This document shows positions 15,389 to 23,085 of a DNA stretch of 23,607 nucleotides, one piece after another. The first letter of the stretch is position 1. Each line of letters opens with the position of its first letter. The notes beneath the pieces were generated by a model, which was given only the letters and a program-made list of their open reading frames with translations, had not been told where the DNA came from and searched no databases. The stretch covers positions 1 through 23,607 of IMG/VR virus record IMGVR_UViG_3300031957_001947; one strand, written 5' to 3'. A program made the translations under genes and the position numbers. The stretch comes from a virus.

Positions 15389-15679
15389 ATGCCCGACGAA
15401 AACAAAGAAGACATGGTTTCCATTCCAAAGTCTTTATTTACTGCGCTTATGGAAGCGCTTGTTGGTAGTGAAACTGTCCCAGCACAAATGGAAGAAAGCG
15501 CCGAAGCACAGAAGGCTTATGACGCCCTAATGGGTGAAAGAGCGGCAGCCAGAGAGGCTGACCTTGATGTGAGGTCTGGTGCAGCGGCTTTGGAATACGG
15601 TGATGTGGAAACTACTATTGACGATCTCCTTGGTGTGGAACAGACCCGAGCGCTAATGGAAGAGCAGGAGGAAAAATGA
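15389..15679 (+). CDS. Small acidic protein of unknown function upstream of the holin-like gene
   Basis: This 96-residue acidic helical protein is rich in Glu, Ala and Asp, with no cysteine and no membrane segment. Helices are likely at about 14-25 (KSLFTALMEALV) and 35-60, and it ends EEQEEK. An AAAAGGAAAATAACTA leader precedes the ATG. The last codons overlap the ATG of the holin-like gene (ATGA), implying translational coupling. It was not recognised as any family. Possible roles are a regulator of the coupled membrane peptide or a minor virion protein; neither is supported beyond context. Confidence 0.55.
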   Translation: MPDENKEDMVSIPKSLFTALMEALVGSETVPAQMEESAEAQKAYDALMGERAAAREADLDVRSGAAALEYGDVETTIDDLLGVEQTRALMEEQEEK

Positions 15680-15861
15680 GAAATGCTATTGACAAAGGAC
15701 TTTCTAAAATCGTCTCGCGCAAGTTGCTCGTTTGGATTACTGCTACTGCTTTGGCAGCAACCGGCTTCCTCACCAGCGGAGACTGGGTTATTCTTTCAGC
15801 CATTTACATTGGCTCCCAAGGAGTTATTGATTCCATCGTTAGGCTCAAAGGAGGAAAGTGA
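15676..15861 (+). CDS. Holin-like two-helix membrane peptide
   Basis: This 61-residue protein has a basic N-terminus (KGLSKIVSRK), a hydrophobic helix at about 17-32 (LLVWITATALAATGFL), a short polar turn (TSGD), a second hydrophobic helix at about 37-55 (WVILSAIYIGSQGVIDSIV), and a basic tail (RLKGGK). This is the size and hairpin topology of small phage holins, which permeabilise the inner membrane at lysis. It lies between virion genes and the terminase region, as the T7 holin (gene 17.5) does. It overlaps the upstream gene by ATGA and the downstream gene by TGATG. No endolysin is adjacent, so holin remains an inference from topology and position. Confidence 0.55.
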   Translation: MRNAIDKGLSKIVSRKLLVWITATALAATGFLTSGDWVILSAIYIGSQGVIDSIVRLKGGK

Positions 15862-16001
15862 TGTCCCTTTACAGAAACATAAACAAGCGGAAGAAAGCAG
15901 GAACAAGCAGATCCAAGTCCCGTTCTACCATAGACCCGAAGACCTACGACAAGATGAAAAAGAAGAAAGGTGGCTTCGCACCTAAACGGAAAAAGAAATA
16001 A
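15861..16001 (+). CDS. Highly basic mini-protein 1 (46 residues)
   Basis: The frame from the ATG at 15861 to the TAA at 15999-16001 encodes 46 residues, of which about 20 are Lys or Arg. It has a Ser/Arg patch (GTSRSKSRS, 14-22), DPKTYDKMKKKKGG at 25-38, and the ending PKRKKK. GGAGGAAAG just upstream is a good ribosome-binding site. Its start overlaps the holin-like stop (TGATG) and its stop overlaps the next start (TAATG), strong evidence that it is translated. It probably binds DNA or RNA, like the other two basic proteins in this cluster; it could be packaged with the genome. No family was recognised. Confidence 0.65.
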   Translation: MSLYRNINKRKKAGTSRSKSRSTIDPKTYDKMKKKKGGFAPKRKKK

Positions 16002-16153
16002 TGCCTATTCGCAAAACAAAGAAAGGCTACAAAATAGACAAGACCAAAGGTTATTCCAAAACAAAGAAGGAGGCAACCAAAAGGCTTCGCGCCATCAAGG
16101 CTTCCCAATCAAAGAAGAAAGGAGGAGGCTATGGCAAAGCCAAGAAAAGGTAA
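16001..16153 (+). CDS. Highly basic mini-protein 2 (50 residues)
   Basis: The frame from 16001 to the TAA at 16151-16153 encodes 50 residues with about 21 Lys/Arg. It opens MPIRKTKKGYKI, continues YSKTKKEATKRLRAIKASQS (18-37), a segment that reads as an amphipathic helix, and closes KKKGGGYGKAKKR. It overlaps its neighbours at both ends: one base upstream (TAATG) and 23 bases downstream, where the next start (16131) lies within its last eight codons behind AAGAAAGGAGGAGG. A nucleic-acid-binding role is likely from charge; the specific function is unknown. Confidence 0.65.
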   Translation: MPIRKTKKGYKIDKTKGYSKTKKEATKRLRAIKASQSKKKGGGYGKAKKR

Positions 16154-16400
16154 AGCAAAAGTCAAGGTCGTCAAAAACAAAAAGACCGGTAGAACTAAAA
16201 AGGTTTCCTACGGTCAGGCTGGCAAAGCAAAGGGCGGTGGTCGTCGTGTGAAGCCGGGAACAAAGAAGGGCGATTCTTATTGTGCTCGTTCTTATGGAAT
16301 AAAGAAGCGCTTGTCAAAGAAAAAGCAGAACGACCCGAACACGCCCAACAACCTTTCTCGTAAGCGTTGGAGATGTAAAGGCAAAAAGTCTATGAAATAA
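16131..16400 (+). CDS. Highly basic small protein with a conserved Cys-containing C-terminal motif (DUF6321-like)
   Basis: This 89-residue protein is mostly Lys, Arg and Gly up to residue 45. It then carries a structured-looking motif: GDSYCARSYGIKKR at 47-60 and NDPNTPNNLSRKRWRCKGKK at 67-86, with Cys51 and Cys82. I recall a small domain of this type (DUF6321) from marine phage proteins; I am moderately sure of that name. The two cysteines could bind metal or pair. GGAGGAGG seven to eight bases upstream fixes the start at 16131, inside the previous gene. With its two basic neighbours it forms a coupled set that may bind or condense nucleic acid, or line the capsid interior. Confidence 0.7.
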   Translation: MAKPRKGKAKVKVVKNKKTGRTKKVSYGQAGKAKGGGRRVKPGTKKGDSYCARSYGIKKRLSKKKQNDPNTPNNLSRKRWRCKGKKSMK

Positions 16401-16465: not shown

Positions 16466-16861
16466 ATGAAGAAAAGAACTTATGGTTCAAAGACTATGCG
16501 ACAGAAGAGAGCAACACACACGGACAGGTTGAATGCCTGCCAGACTTGGCACGAGGTAGAGAGCCTGCCGTTTTATGACGACTGGATCAAAACAGTTCCA
16601 ATAAACTTGGACTGGATTCAAACCCAGCCTTACCTTTCGCAAGTGGAACCAGACAGCAGACTACGCTACGAAGAACTTTGTGATGAAATAGACGACTGCC
16701 TAAACGACCGTGAAAGATCTGTGTTTTATTCAATAGCAGAGGAACGCAAGTCGCTTCGTCTCCTCGCAAAAGAAATGGGCTGCTCCCACCAGACAGTCCA
16801 AAACATCTACAAGAAGGCAAAGAACAAACTACAAAAAAGGTTGGAAGACTGGCGTGCCTAA
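16466..16861 (+). CDS. Sigma-70 region-4-like helix-turn-helix protein, possible late-gene regulator
   Basis: This 131-residue protein has a C-terminal part, about 75-130, that closely follows sigma factor region 4: a conserved-type CLNDRERSVFYSIAEE helix, then SLRLLAKEMGCSHQTVQNIY (96-115) as the helix-turn-helix, then a basic KKAKNKLQKRL helix. No region 2 is present, so it is not a full sigma factor. The N-terminus (1-70) is basic and then aromatic, with no recognised domain. Proteins of this shape just upstream of terminase genes (ArpU/RinA-like) activate late transcription in some phages; a small-terminase DNA-binding role is an alternative. AGGAGG at 16454-16459 fixes the start. The following gene overlaps its stop. 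Confidence 0.65.
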   Translation: MKKRTYGSKTMRQKRATHTDRLNACQTWHEVESLPFYDDWIKTVPINLDWIQTQPYLSQVEPDSRLRYEELCDEIDDCLNDRERSVFYSIAEERKSLRLLAKEMGCSHQTVQNIYKKAKNKLQKRLEDWRA

Positions 16862-17117: not shown

Positions 17118-17360
17118 ATGAAATCAACACAAGCAAAACGCGCCATCTCTTCTATTAGGAAGGGAGACATAACCAAGACGCTTGAAAACATTATTTCCGC
17201 TCTTATTGAGAAGTTTGACGAAGAAGACTGGAAGAGCGCGAAGGTGCAGGATCTTATTTCTTTGCTTGTTCTTTACCGAGGAACGCAGTTGGAAGACGCC
17301 AACGGTTCCTCTGCCCTTGACACTTGGCTTGTTTCAGTTTCTAAAAAAACTAATAAATGA
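17118..17360 (+). CDS. Candidate small terminase subunit
   Basis: This 80-residue helical protein is close in length to T7 gp18 (89) and lies directly before the large terminase, whose ATG overlaps its stop (ATGA). This is the usual coupling of small and large terminase genes. Helices are likely at about 4-14, 17-35 (ITKTLENIISALIEKFDEED) and 43-54 (VQDLISLLVLYR). The N-terminus is basic and there is no obvious helix-turn-helix. GGAAGGGTCAAA precedes the ATG. Small terminases are poorly conserved, so the call rests on size, position and coupling. Confidence 0.45.
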   Translation: MKSTQAKRAISSIRKGDITKTLENIISALIEKFDEEDWKSAKVQDLISLLVLYRGTQLEDANGSSALDTWLVSVSKKTNK

Positions 17361-18865
17361 ATCCAGCCATAGACAAGGTGCTCTCCGATCCGGTGGAGTT
17401 TGTTTCTCGTCTTCGCATAAAAGACAAGAAGGGCAAATACAAAACTTTTGGGAATGTTCTAACGGACGAGCAGATCCAAATAATCCAAGCAATCACCGAC
17501 CCAGAAATAGACCGCATCGCTATTGTAAAAGCGCGACAACTCGGCATTACGACCGCGTGTCGTGCTGCTTTATTTTGGGAAACCTACACGAGCAACCGTT
17601 CCATAAACTCGGCACTCTGCTCTAATAAACTCGGTTCCGCAACAGAACTTCTAAAAATAGACAAGCGTTTCCTAAATAACCTACCAAAGCCTCTTCGTAG
17701 AACCTGTGCCGAGCGTGTTGATCGCATGGTCTTTCCCAGCACGGACAGCACCATTCTCGCTGTGTCCGCACAAGGCGACGGACATAACCGAGGCTTCACC
17801 TTCAACCACGCACACGCCAGCGAGTTTGCTTTCTACGACCACCCAGAAGAGTTCTTGGCTTCGCTTATTGCTTCTACCAACGACGGCAAGATTATTTTGG
17901 AAAGCACAGCCAACCACTACGGAGACGCGCTACACAACATAGCAAGAACGAATCACTATGACGAAAGGTGGAAAGTTATTTTTCTTCCTTGGACTACCTT
18001 CCCACAATACTCGCTGAAACTACCAAAGGGCGGAATAGAGTGGGACGCGAAAGAACTAAAACTAATGGAAGACTTTTCGCTCACACCCGAGCAGGTCTAT
18101 TGGCGTCGTAGAAAGATCGGTGAAATAAAAGACGAGCGTTTATTCCGCCGTGAGTTCCCTCTTACTATTGAAGAGGCTTACTCGTTGAGCGAAGAGAACT
18201 ACTTTGCCGAAGAACATTTCCAGCATTTAGACATAGTAGAAATAGGGCACAGTCCTATTCAGGTCATAACCGAAAGAGAAACCAGCGATGTTTATGTTTG
18301 CGGTGTTGATCTTGCTGCTGGTGTAGGGGGCGACTATTCGGTTGCTACTGTTGTTTCTAAACTTACAAGTGCCCCAGTTGCTATTCTTTCGTCTAACAAA
18401 ATGTCCATCCACGATTTCACAATAGCGACTATGAACCTTGCCAAAAGGTTTGATGCACAAATAGTTTTTGAAAACAACCACGGTGGCGGGCAGTTCCAAG
18501 AGATTCTAAACAATAACTCTTGGCGGAACTGGAAGTCATTTACGACAACAGCAAAGTCAAAGATGATGCTCTATGACTGCCTGCGAACCTACTTGGAAGA
18601 AAACCTTATTGCTTATTTAGACCAGCCTACTTATGCTGAAATGAGAAACCTTGTGAAGGATCCAAAGGGTCTTGCTCCAAAGCACCCACCGGGTTCCCAC
18701 GACGACCGTGTTATTTCTTATGCCCTTGCTCTCTACCACCTACAAAGTGTTTCCACACCTCGCACAGACTACGACAAGTGGATCGCACAGGTCAAGCGAG
18801 AGCAAAGAACGGCAAACAAAATAAACCCACTTATGAGAAACCACCCTCTAAAAAGGAGACGCTAA
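17357..18865 (+). CDS. Terminase large subunit (packaging ATPase and nuclease)
   Basis: This 502-residue protein powers DNA translocation into the prohead and cuts the concatemer. The ATPase domain has a Walker A variant KARQLGITT (58-66), a Walker B region ending HASEF (153-157), and the coupling motif LESTAN (181-186). The RNase H-like nuclease has GVDLAAG (316-322, Asp318), FENNHGG (371-377, Glu372) and PPGSHDDRVISYALA (444-458, Asp449/Asp450). All motifs are present in order and at normal spacing, so the enzyme looks intact. The Walker A lacks the second Gly of the classical form, a known feature of terminases. It is coupled upstream to the small-terminase candidate by ATGA, and the portal ATG follows its stop directly. 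Confidence 0.95.
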   Translation: MNPAIDKVLSDPVEFVSRLRIKDKKGKYKTFGNVLTDEQIQIIQAITDPEIDRIAIVKARQLGITTACRAALFWETYTSNRSINSALCSNKLGSATELLKIDKRFLNNLPKPLRRTCAERVDRMVFPSTDSTILAVSAQGDGHNRGFTFNHAHASEFAFYDHPEEFLASLIASTNDGKIILESTANHYGDALHNIARTNHYDERWKVIFLPWTTFPQYSLKLPKGGIEWDAKELKLMEDFSLTPEQVYWRRRKIGEIKDERLFRREFPLTIEEAYSLSEENYFAEEHFQHLDIVEIGHSPIQVITERETSDVYVCGVDLAAGVGGDYSVATVVSKLTSAPVAILSSNKMSIHDFTIATMNLAKRFDAQIVFENNHGGGQFQEILNNNSWRNWKSFTTTAKSKMMLYDCLRTYLEENLIAYLDQPTYAEMRNLVKDPKGLAPKHPPGSHDDRVISYALALYHLQSVSTPRTDYDKWIAQVKREQRTANKINPLMRNHPLKRRR

Positions 18866-20593
18866 ATGGGACTCAACCAAAAAGAACTTTATTACCTAAC
18901 TTCCCAGCATAGAGAATACTGGGACAGACAGAGAGAAAGAATGTCTGCCTACACGAGCGCCTACAAGTGCTCTATGTTTGGCAGCGAAAGAGACAATGCC
19001 TTCAACAGAAATAGTTTTATTTCCGTAGAGACAGCGGACGCTTATGCCTACATTGAGGGCTTTATTGCTTCGCTTTATTCCAAGGCACCAGCCCTAACCG
19101 TAGGTGCTGACGCACAGAACAAGGGCGACCCAGAGGTCGTTGAGGCTGTCGTCAATCGTTTCCTCTACGACAAGATTGACATTGTAGAACAGGGACTACG
19201 CTACGCACTTCTTTACCCTTATTCGTTTTTCAAAATGGGTGTGCTTGACCGAGACAAGGTTATTGATTCGGTTGCTATTCGCGCCGTTCATCCTTGGGAT
19301 GTTGTCGTTGATTTTGAGGCAGAGGACTTTGCTGCTTCCCGTTTCATAGGACACCGCTACTTCCTGCCCTACAACGAGGCAAAAGAAAAGTTCCCAAGTG
19401 TCAAGTTCAACCCTGTCGCAAAGGAGGAATACTTACGCTATGTTGAGTCTGCCAAGGGTTCTGTCGGCTACGAGAACGCCGACTATGACGCTGCTGTTGC
19501 TGGTTTTGATGGAAGTAAGTTGTTGTCTTATGTTGAGATCTACGAATACTACGACCTCATGGAAGACGAACTTATTTTCTATTCCCCGTCAGCAGAGCGT
19601 CAAAACAAGATCATAGACACAGTAAGCCCTATTCCTTTCCGCAAGCAGGACGGTTCGCCCTGTCCTCCCCTTGCTCCTATTTACCTTTCCTATTCCCCAG
19701 AGGCACCGCTCAAAGGCTTCTCCTCTATGGCAAGGATCTACGACCAACTCTACGAAATCAACAACCTACGAACCGTTTGGGCTAATGGTCTTCGCAGAGA
19801 CGCACGCATTTATGTCGCACAGAAGGGAGCGCTTGACGAAGAGGGCAAGGCTATTCTTGCCCAGAACATAGACCAGTCGGTCGTTGAGTTGGATGTGCCA
19901 CCTGACAGCGATGCTCGCAATGTTATTGTCCCGCTCGCCACAGCCACCTACTCGCCTGACTATTCTATTTACAAGGCCGAGATCCGTGCTGACCTTGACC
20001 GTGGTTCAGTTATGGCTCCTTTCACCAGAGGCGTAGCGACACAGGCAAGCGCCACAGAGATCGCTGCTCTAACTTCTTATGCGAATAGTGAAATAGGAAG
20101 GCTTGCTCGCTTCTTCCACAGGGCTATTGAAATGTGTGGAGAGATCTACCAGTCTCTTATTTTCCACCTTCTTATGACTGGCGAGGAAGCAGACGAGACA
20201 AGAGAGGTTGTTCTTATTGACTACAAGCCCCGTGTTATTTCACCAGAGGCTTTCTCCGGTAAGTTCCGCTACTCTTTTGCCGACCAGTCCTCTTCGCCTA
20301 TTACAACAGCGGTGAAGAAGGCAACCATTATGCAACTTATTCCTACGCTTGGGGAACTGGGAGCACCACCAGAGGAACTACTTTCTTACATTATTAGCAC
20401 CTTTGATTTGCCCGAATCCTTTATGAAGACGCAGGCAGCCGAAGCACCCGGAGGCGTAGCGCCCGGTCTAAACGAGGACGAAGCCCCAGCCGAAATGGGT
20501 GAGGCAGGACTGCCTGTCGGTGGTGGTAGAGCCGCTGCTGCTATTAGAAGCGAAGGGCAGGAGCAGATCGCAACGCAGATGGAGGAAGCCTAA
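18866..20593 (+). CDS. Portal (head-tail connector) protein
   Basis: This 575-residue protein compares with 536 for T7 gp8. It forms the ring at one capsid vertex through which DNA enters and leaves and on which the terminase docks. The opening (LTSQHREYWDRQRERMSAY) and the ETADAYAYIEGFIASLY helix (about 53-69) resemble podovirus portals. A conserved-looking GSVMAPFTRGVATQASATEI at about 380-400 precedes long helices that would form the stem and crown. The tail (about 525-575) is Gly/Ala/Glu-rich and probably disordered. AAAAGGAG precedes the ATG, which directly follows the terminase TAA. The call combines sequence character, length and its position after the large terminase. Confidence 0.85.
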   Translation: MGLNQKELYYLTSQHREYWDRQRERMSAYTSAYKCSMFGSERDNAFNRNSFISVETADAYAYIEGFIASLYSKAPALTVGADAQNKGDPEVVEAVVNRFLYDKIDIVEQGLRYALLYPYSFFKMGVLDRDKVIDSVAIRAVHPWDVVVDFEAEDFAASRFIGHRYFLPYNEAKEKFPSVKFNPVAKEEYLRYVESAKGSVGYENADYDAAVAGFDGSKLLSYVEIYEYYDLMEDELIFYSPSAERQNKIIDTVSPIPFRKQDGSPCPPLAPIYLSYSPEAPLKGFSSMARIYDQLYEINNLRTVWANGLRRDARIYVAQKGALDEEGKAILAQNIDQSVVELDVPPDSDARNVIVPLATATYSPDYSIYKAEIRADLDRGSVMAPFTRGVATQASATEIAALTSYANSEIGRLARFFHRAIEMCGEIYQSLIFHLLMTGEEADETREVVLIDYKPRVISPEAFSGKFRYSFADQSSSPITTAVKKATIMQLIPTLGELGAPPEELLSYIISTFDLPESFMKTQAAEAPGGVAPGLNEDEAPAEMGEAGLPVGGGRAAAAIRSEGQEQIATQMEEA

Positions 20594-22576: not shown

Positions 22577-22605
22577 TGAGGCGAATAAGGCGTCTAATCG
22601 CCTCA
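22577..22605. repeat. Inverted repeat overlapping the end of the HNH gene
   Basis: TGAGGCGA at 22577-22584 and TCGCCTCA at 22598-22605 are perfect 8-bp arms around a 13-base loop. The right arm includes the stop codon of the leftward HNH gene. An inner GGCG/CGCC pair (22589-22592 with 22599-22602) offers a competing smaller hairpin. On the leftward strand the repeat is followed by an A-run, not a T-run, so it is not a standard terminator by itself. It could stabilise the 3' end of the leftward mRNA. Confidence 0.55.
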
Positions 22606-23085
22606 CTCTACGACATGGAGAATCTTTTTTGCTGCTTTGTAGGCGGCGTGTGCTTCCTCTTGGGTGTCAAAGTGCCCGAGGTAGGTTGTCTTGCCGTTCT
22701 TTGTTATGCGAGCCATCCAAGAGTTCCTGCTCTTTACGAAGGTTGTTCCTGTGGCTTTTGTGTTCCAAGCGTTCTCTTGGCGAGTAACCCAGCGTAGGTT
22801 CTCAACACGGTTGTCTTTCCTGTCGTGGTTTATGTGGTCTAACATTTTTTTATTCTTCGTGTTTGGAATAAATGTCTTCGCAATAAGGCGATGAACATAG
22901 CAAACTTTCTGCTTGCCCCCCACAGACAAGGTTACGATTGAATAACCTTCTGTGTGCTTTTGGGGTTTTAGCATTTTCATTTCACCACCTCTTCGGTAGT
23001 TGTAAGAATAAATGTTTCCTTTCCTGTCTGCCCCGTAGTTTGGGAAACCGGGGATGTCTGTGATCTCTTTGCTTTCATTATTCAT
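22603..23085 (-). CDS. NUMOD4-HNH-AP2 homing endonuclease
   Basis: This 160-residue protein has three modules. A NUMOD4-like DNA-contact segment covers about 8-50 (ITDIPGFPNYGADRKGNIYS at 8-27). An HNH_3-type nuclease covers about 63-108: YVHRLIAKTF, then MLDHINHDRKDNRVENLRWV at 81-100 with His84, Asn86/His87 and Asn96, ending QENAWN. An AP2-type DNA-binding domain covers about 115-152: SWMARITKNGKTTYLGHFDT then EEAHAAY. This is the standard build of phage free-standing HNH homing endonucleases, and all key residues appear intact. TTAGGAGAAATAAAA before the start overlaps the stop of the upstream Api92-like gene. It is encoded opposite to the late genes, immediately after their terminator. 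Confidence 0.92.
   Translation of the reverse strand: MNNESKEITDIPGFPNYGADRKGNIYSYNYRRGGEMKMLKPQKHTEGYSIVTLSVGGKQKVCYVHRLIAKTFIPNTKNKKMLDHINHDRKDNRVENLRWVTRQENAWNTKATGTTFVKSRNSWMARITKNGKTTYLGHFDTQEEAHAAYKAAKKILHVVE

Follow-up and report, generated by a model that had tools for sequence, protein, structure and literature searches.

A run of three overlapping basic genes before the terminase gene

The window analysed here is the whole 23,607-base virus sequence, and all window coordinates refer to its full length. Upstream of the terminase gene it carries three consecutive genes for small, highly basic proteins, hereafter P1, P2 and P3, which are arranged with their neighbours as follows.

15676–15861, + strand: 61-aa membrane-type protein (best match the holin family phrog_4237, E = 0.16, not significant)
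15859–15863, + strand: TGATG, in which the stop of the upstream 61-aa gene overlaps the P1 start
15861–16001, + strand: P1, 46 aa, net charge +17, family phrog_25774, two helices predicted
15999–16003, + strand: TAATG, in which the P1 stop overlaps the P2 start
16001–16153, + strand: P2, 50 aa, net charge +19, assigned to an undescribed family with a consensus of about MPIRKTKKGWKIDNVPGYSKTKKEAEKRLRAVKASQ
16131–16153, + strand: 23-base overlap of P2 and P3, with AGGAGGAGG directly 5' (16120–16128)
16131–16400, + strand: P3, 89 aa, net charge +32, DUF6321-related and by profile comparison homologous to DUF5754/Tlr6F, with invariant C51, C82, R53 and W80
16466–16861, + strand: 131-aa protein with a helix-turn-helix (HTH) of sigma-70 region 4 type (PF04545, E 1.5e-6, above the cut-off), between the basic set and the terminase gene
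17357–18865, + strand: terminase large subunit (phrog_2, E 6e-21)
18866–20593, + strand: portal-like protein, weakly assigned (phrog_156, E 0.014; SU10 portal, E 0.17)

The preliminary description had pointed to three frames of 46, 50 and 89 residues packed with Lys and Arg and linked by TGATG, TAATG and a 23-base overlap, and all of these junctions were found. Lys and Arg together made up 41%, 42% and 38% of P1, P2 and P3, compared with 4.5–20.4% in the 20 other tabulated plus-strand genes of the window, whose net charges ranged from -64 to +5. Shine-Dalgarno-like GGAGG sites could be read upstream of P1 (15850–15854) and P3 (within 16120–16128); P2 lacks a good site of this kind and looks translationally coupled.

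The comparison set for pN/pS was confined to the terminase relatives L004–L007, relative to which the changes in P1–P3 were mostly synonymous, with small counts. Against L005, the synonymous and non-synonymous substitutions numbered 5 and 1 in P1, 3 and 2 in P2, and 21 and 6 in P3, corresponding to pN/pS values of 0.05, 0.18 and 0.08 that likewise rest on small counts. Furthermore, L3, N6, R10, G14, S16, R17, K19, T23 and M32 of P1 and G7, C51, R53, W80 and C82 of P3 were invariant in all 43 rows of the respective alignments; since non-basic residues are among them, conservation goes beyond charge. The presence of C51 and C82 in 43 of 43 sequences also bears out the conserved-looking two-Cys motif noted earlier in the third protein. 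Overlapping alternative frames are open too, which speaks for the reading that P1–P3 are meaningless open frames within AAG-rich DNA, but the mostly synonymous change, the conserved non-basic residues and the hundreds of relatives described below refute it and leave it a practically negligible probability. P1, P2 and P3 are confirmed as genuine genes with relatives elsewhere, not chance open frames.

The gene upstream of P1 had been called holin-like; its product is indeed a small membrane-type protein, but the holin match is weak. Tight coupling of the basic set to this gene did not hold up among relatives: P1 lies behind a different coil/TM gene in L012–L014, and the P1-type gene of T7-like pelagiphages sits between the scaffold and capsid genes. 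The sigma-70 region 4 type HTH gene has same-place counterparts in terminase relatives, even in those lacking the basic set, and its product might be a small terminase or a late regulator. Homing-endonuclease-type genes were observed near both window ends, one of GIY-YIG type at 126–761 (+; E 9e-6) and one of HNH_3 type with an AP2-like tail at 22603–23085 (-; E 5.8e-14). A near-identity search of the window in phage records gave no match, and the terminase relative listed first by tblastn, Roseobacter phage CRP-7, shared 26% identity.

P1 and P2 belong to separate families

P1 matched phrog_25774 at E 2e-15, its residues 1–45 aligning with positions 1–41 of the 42-position profile, and this nearly full-length match places it in the family. 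phrog_25774, of unknown function, comes from phages of Pelagibacter, Roseobacter, Methylophilales and Synechococcus, covers nearly all of P1 and recurs beside P3-type genes, whereas its members in T7-like pelagiphages lie between scaffold and capsid genes and P1 here lies before terminase. The consensus of the P1 family starts with SLYxNINKRKKAGTSRSKxKST. At least 475 relatives were confirmed in IMG/VR, and 29 of the 50,697 phage records searched matched a P1-type query when E values up to 5 were allowed. Comparison with the 'GLYxNI' genes (profile M9) gave a profile similarity of 86.7%, spanning 12 columns only.

It had been suggested that these small genes are missed by annotation, which applies to some of the P1-type matches in phage records, located under no CDS, but not to all. 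Coding matches without an annotated CDS, or only partly under one, were seen in HTVC010P (L190, 3501–3569), Gjalp (hit H98) and P60 (L189, 3501–3596, partly covered by gp45), and they are probably genes that annotation missed.

For P2, there was no Pfam hit and no significant PHROG hit, and tblastn against phage records found nothing. Restriction of P2 to close relatives was nevertheless ruled out by 69 IMG/VR loci, 63 of them beyond the close relatives, and by sequence P2 is a member of an undescribed family. One subgroup (L262, L264, L265 and L266) carries a C-terminal GCSCHSKR, which is a possible metal or disulphide site.

P3 connects DUF6321 with the Tlr6F/DUF5754 proteins

P3 scored 16.7 bits (E 0.012) against Pfam PF19846 (DUF6321), below the cut-off of 28.5 bits, and is therefore termed DUF6321-related rather than a member. 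A profile built from P3 and its close relatives found S-CREM2 gp137 (domain E 5e-10), itself above the Pfam cut-off for DUF6321. P3 and DUF6321, whose cyanophage proteins include S-RIM2 SWUG_00084 and S-CREM2 gp137, share a CAR...W.C core, more fully [YF]CAR...W.C, to which the invariant C51, R53, W80 and C82 of P3 belong (43/43). P3 is a stand-alone protein of 89 aa, whereas the cyanophage members examined are longer and have additional segments ahead of this part. The leading tblastn matches of P3 in cultured phage records had 59–71% identity across 48–64 residues. With E up to 0.1 allowed, P3 matched 47 phage records, and it had relatives on at least 597 IMG/VR stretches. A search of 84,980 genomes of bacteria and archaea confirmed P3-type sequences at just 37 places. 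Judging from the record titles, nearly all of these 37 places are on metagenome-assembled or single-cell contigs, which suggests that the P3-type gene is viral. Two database names in these families are not supported by the sequences that bear them: a DUF6321-type protein is labelled 'RecA-like recombination protein' (Greip gp45; L191, 3015–3266), and a P1-type protein 'Gp59-like DNA recombinase' (Venkman gp69; L192, 1325–1465). The names 'DNA recombinase' and 'RecA-like' on such genes are doubtful.

The tie between P3 and Tlr6F was the most interesting result. Tlr6F, equated with PF19058 in PMC12220804, was described in 2015 as a conserved protein of almost all polinton-like viruses, of several virophages and numerous giant viruses, and of some phages, without detectable similarity to any domain of known structure or function (PMC4642659). 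DUF5754 and DUF5872 proteins are both listed in PMC12085832 for CpV-BQ1, which infects a haptophyte alga. Our literature search returned no paper on DUF6321 and none on the function of DUF5754, DUF5872 or Tlr6F.

P3 had no match to Pfam PF19058 (DUF5754) at E up to 1 and thus stands outside Tlr6F/DUF5754 in the strict sense. hhalign aligned the P3 family with DUF5754/Tlr6F over 74 columns at 92.4% probability (E 5.3e-7), compared with 0.2% and 0.4% when the equally basic P1 family was run against each of the two families as a control. A profile grown from a DUF5754-type cluster reached P3 at 8.4e-5 after 4 rounds; such expansions, of four rounds from Tlr6F to P3 and three rounds in the other cases, may drift. 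Intermediates between P3 and Tlr6F (L176, L141, L135 and L162) carry YCARS inside an otherwise Tlr6F-like chain. Tlr6F-type chains read ARHxC...YWSCKxW and P3 reads YCARS...RKRWRC, but the two share the same neighbours, namely P1- and P2-type genes. A neighbouring gene belonging to the DUF5754 cluster (representative 48 bits, cut-off 27.4) was found in 17 of 70 P1-centred clusters. A DUF5754 scan of four cyanophage records gave no signal (0/4), but as its control gave none anywhere either, this carries no information; gp63 of CRP-7 is DUF5872-type, its 27.3 bits falling just short of the 27.5 required. Taken by profile homology with negative controls, P3 can be placed in the Tlr6F/DUF5754 superfamily in the broad sense.

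Predicted structures of P1 and P3

P3 is probably the most structured of the three proteins; AlphaFold2 gave it a confident small fold (mean pLDDT 90.2, pTM 0.75) of two strands (residues 10–15 and 22–27) followed by helices (45–59, 63–67 and 72–79) and containing the two conserved cysteines. For P1, two helices were predicted (pLDDT 85.1, pTM 0.43). Foldseek against the PDB gave no match for P3 at E <= 0.001 and none at all for P1, a sequence search of solved structures found none for either, and VIA-align returned 0 of 93 chains at Z 2 or more. No DNA-binding fold was matched in these structure comparisons. The absence of PDB matches means that the fold offers no functional hint, and a new fold is not proven thereby. 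In BFVD, none of the three proteins matched by P3 at E <= 0.001 carries a functional name, and a match in the giant virus CeV-01B was weak; Foldseek also gave a weak match to an S-CAM7 'DUF6321 domain-containing protein' (E 0.25, probability 0.96). Solved structures searched with the Tlr6F-type alignment yielded only weak, unrelated matches.

P1, P2 and P3 are one arrangement of exchangeable modules

The distribution of the set was followed in 20 terminase relatives. Both P1 and P3 were present in 10 of them (L001, L004–L008, L012–L014 and L020), and in L002 and L003 the contig end cuts inside the basic set. None of the set was found in seven relatives that cover the place (L009, L011 and L015–L019), and one, L010, stops short of it. 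The concern that the genes might be absent from relatives was therefore answered in a mixed way, with at least part of the set in 12 of 20, and the seven stretches without any module mark P1–P3 as dispensable rather than essential. What lies in the middle varies. The closest relatives have P2 there, L008 has a basic gene of 31 aa, and L013, L014 and L020 carry a 62-aa gene of 'KHSKHHS' type, which recurs in P-SCSP2 as one of five tiny genes that separate scaffold from capsid; L012 has no middle gene. P1–P3 type families swap for one another between relatives.

Co-location was examined in 160 IMG/VR loci grouped into 125 clusters and, for P2, in 63 loci grouped into 27. The P1 and P3 scans used the best 80 of several hundred relatives each, so these samples are biased toward close relatives. 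A P3-type or Tlr6F-type gene lay within 276 bp of the P1-type gene in 41 of 70 clusters. P3-type genes had a P1-like 'GLYxNI' gene nearby in 23/55 cases (20 at distances up to 320 bp, the other 3 at about 2.2 kb), and a Tlr6F-type gene was on the same retrieved stretch as the P2-type gene in 16/27. Modules are fused into one chain in S-RIM2 and L075. The cyanophage fusion proteins of phrog_727 type, encoded in the vicinity of neck and terminase genes, likewise join several of these modules, but as one long protein, whereas separate coupled mini-genes are found here. A short EF-hand-like piece fused to the GLYxNI module was observed beside DUF6321-type genes in L057 (3715–4008), L061 (222–551) and L066 (3687–3980); the EF-hand matches were weak in L057, the one tested of the three. 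P1, P2 and P3 are one arrangement of a modular stock of short basic proteins shared by marine phages.

The modules recur beside head genes

HTVC011P and HTVC021P carry their P1-type gene between those for the scaffold and the major capsid protein; in S-TIP28 it lies immediately 5' of terminase, and in Venkman two genes intervene before terminase. In P-SCSP2, the interval from scaffold to capsid holds five small genes of this type. A P22-type coat gene directly preceded the P3-type gene (offset -1) in 9 of 55 loci, and the record of Vibrio phage 1.036 ends just past its P3-type gene and starts near terminase. P2-type genes followed the major capsid gene in 11/27 loci (gap 793 bp or less), preceded terminase by about 510 bp in 7/27, and lay near a portal-like and/or unlabelled gene in a further 7/27, of which 5 have a portal assignment, a weak one (E 6e-4).

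Head labels were assigned with profiles of our own, for which PHROGs-labelled genes together with the terminase and portal of the window served as seeds. A labelled head gene was found within 100 bp in 26 of 152 loci against 8.2 expected by random placement, about threefold, and within 1 kb in 70 of 152 against 48.1, a modest excess; on 63 of the 152 loci no head gene was labelled. A PHROGs tally, based on 150 near genes (of 225) and 116 far genes (of 198), showed no more than a modest difference between near and far neighbours; the far genes had been sampled to 150 before those on the minus strand were dropped. The near neighbours (n = 150) included 5 holins and 3 primases. This modest difference indicates that the bias is one of immediate adjacency inside an already structural region.

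A DUF6321-bearing protein reported from cyanophage virions

S-CREM2 gp137, a protein of 490 aa with a DUF6321 domain above the Pfam cut-off, is encoded between the small and large terminase genes. In PMC10665884, its ORF137 (108049–109521) appears in the virion table with 4 unique peptides and 4.1% coverage; at this coverage of a 490-aa chain, the peptides may fall outside the DUF6321 domain. The authors allow for purification carry-over of other, non-structural proteins in the table. Immediately 5' of gp137, the lysine-rich gp136 of 237 aa (L197, 43302–44015) is in that table as well, with 8 peptides and 24.1% coverage. S-SZBM1_192 carries the same DUF6321 domain and is absent from the 30 virion proteins in Table 1 of PMC9146016, as far as that source was available. 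Since highly basic chains probably give few usable tryptic peptides, absence from a virion list is weak evidence. No module was found in 14 scanned small CDS of the P-SS2 structural proteome, and the accessible parts of the P-SCSP1u cryo-EM and P-SSP7 purification papers make no mention of such proteins, whichever modules these two phages may carry.

Possible functions of the basic modules

A joint role in the head or in packaging, as the preliminary description had proposed, is favoured rather than established: genes for capsid, portal, scaffold and terminase are repeatedly the neighbours of the P1–P3 families, which also adjoin one another or Tlr6F/DUF5754 genes and have a DUF6321-bearing counterpart in S-CREM2 virions. 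We give about an even chance to a specific form of this role, in which P1–P3 are late-made, genome-contacting head or packaging modules that stay with the head DNA. The three proteins would probably be made together late in infection via their coupled starts, bind nucleic acid through their charge, act during genome packaging and remain with the DNA inside the head. Genome condensation or a capsid-interior location, both named in the preliminary description, may form part of this. Counting against this reading, S-SZBM1_192 does not appear in its virion list, seven relatives do without any of the modules, the head-gene excess is modest at 1 kb, a few near neighbours are holins or primases, 63 of 152 loci are without a labelled head gene, and no DNA-binding fold was matched. 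The genes, the selection on them, their family ties, their co-location and their closeness to head genes are results of the present analysis; DNA contact, timing and head residence we infer from charge, coupling and gene neighbourhood, and presence in virions is suggested by analogy with one relative, S-CREM2 gp137. That detection also argues against P1–P3 assisting head assembly or packaging, as scaffold, terminase or connector cofactors or as phage RNA/DNA binders, and leaving before the virion completes. Such early departure would go with identical gene neighbourhoods and agrees with the missing S-SZBM1_192 in the available part of its virion list; on balance, it appears somewhat improbable.

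Disruptins are cationic lysis proteins, exemplified by gp28 of phage phiKT. A similar weakening of the outer membrane by P1–P3 could be imagined from the genes that precede theirs in the window, CRP-7, CRP-212, Vibrio phages and HTVC024P/HTVC010P, which encode either small membrane proteins or a peptidase M15, and from the holins among the nearest neighbours (5/150). However, the genes keep no constant lysis-cassette place and are often found among head genes, sitting amid scaffold, capsid and terminase genes in T7-like pelagiphage, P22-type and Kyanoviridae loci; homologous Tlr6F/DUF5754 proteins occur in polinton-like and giant viruses of eukaryotes, and P3 is predicted to be folded rather than an amphipathic peptide. 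The lysis link is weak, and we regard this function as unlikely. A very unlikely alternative is that the late-region location is incidental and that P1–P3 are late regulators or host take-over proteins binding the nucleoid, ribosome or RNA polymerase. The proteins are very basic, short and easily exchanged, and a sigma-70 region 4 type gene comes next, but neither the head-gene location in several phage groups nor the S-CREM2 virion hit would be expected of such proteins. The takeover of host nucleic acids that had been considered earlier found no support.

Returning to the genome-contacting head modules, a role of the P1–P3 families in handling the packaged genome is now testable. The tie between P3/DUF6321 and Tlr6F, the head-region neighbours and one virion detection together provide a functional idea that can be tested in phages that can be grown. 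As a more tentative extension, to which we assign a confidence well below even, DUF6321, Tlr6F/DUF5754 and the P1 and P2 families may be genome-handling virion modules common to tailed phages, polinton-like viruses, virophages and giant viruses, with Tlr6F being a protein associated with the packaged genome. If this were true, the function of the long-unexplained Tlr6F of eukaryotic viruses could be worked out in cultured marine phages.
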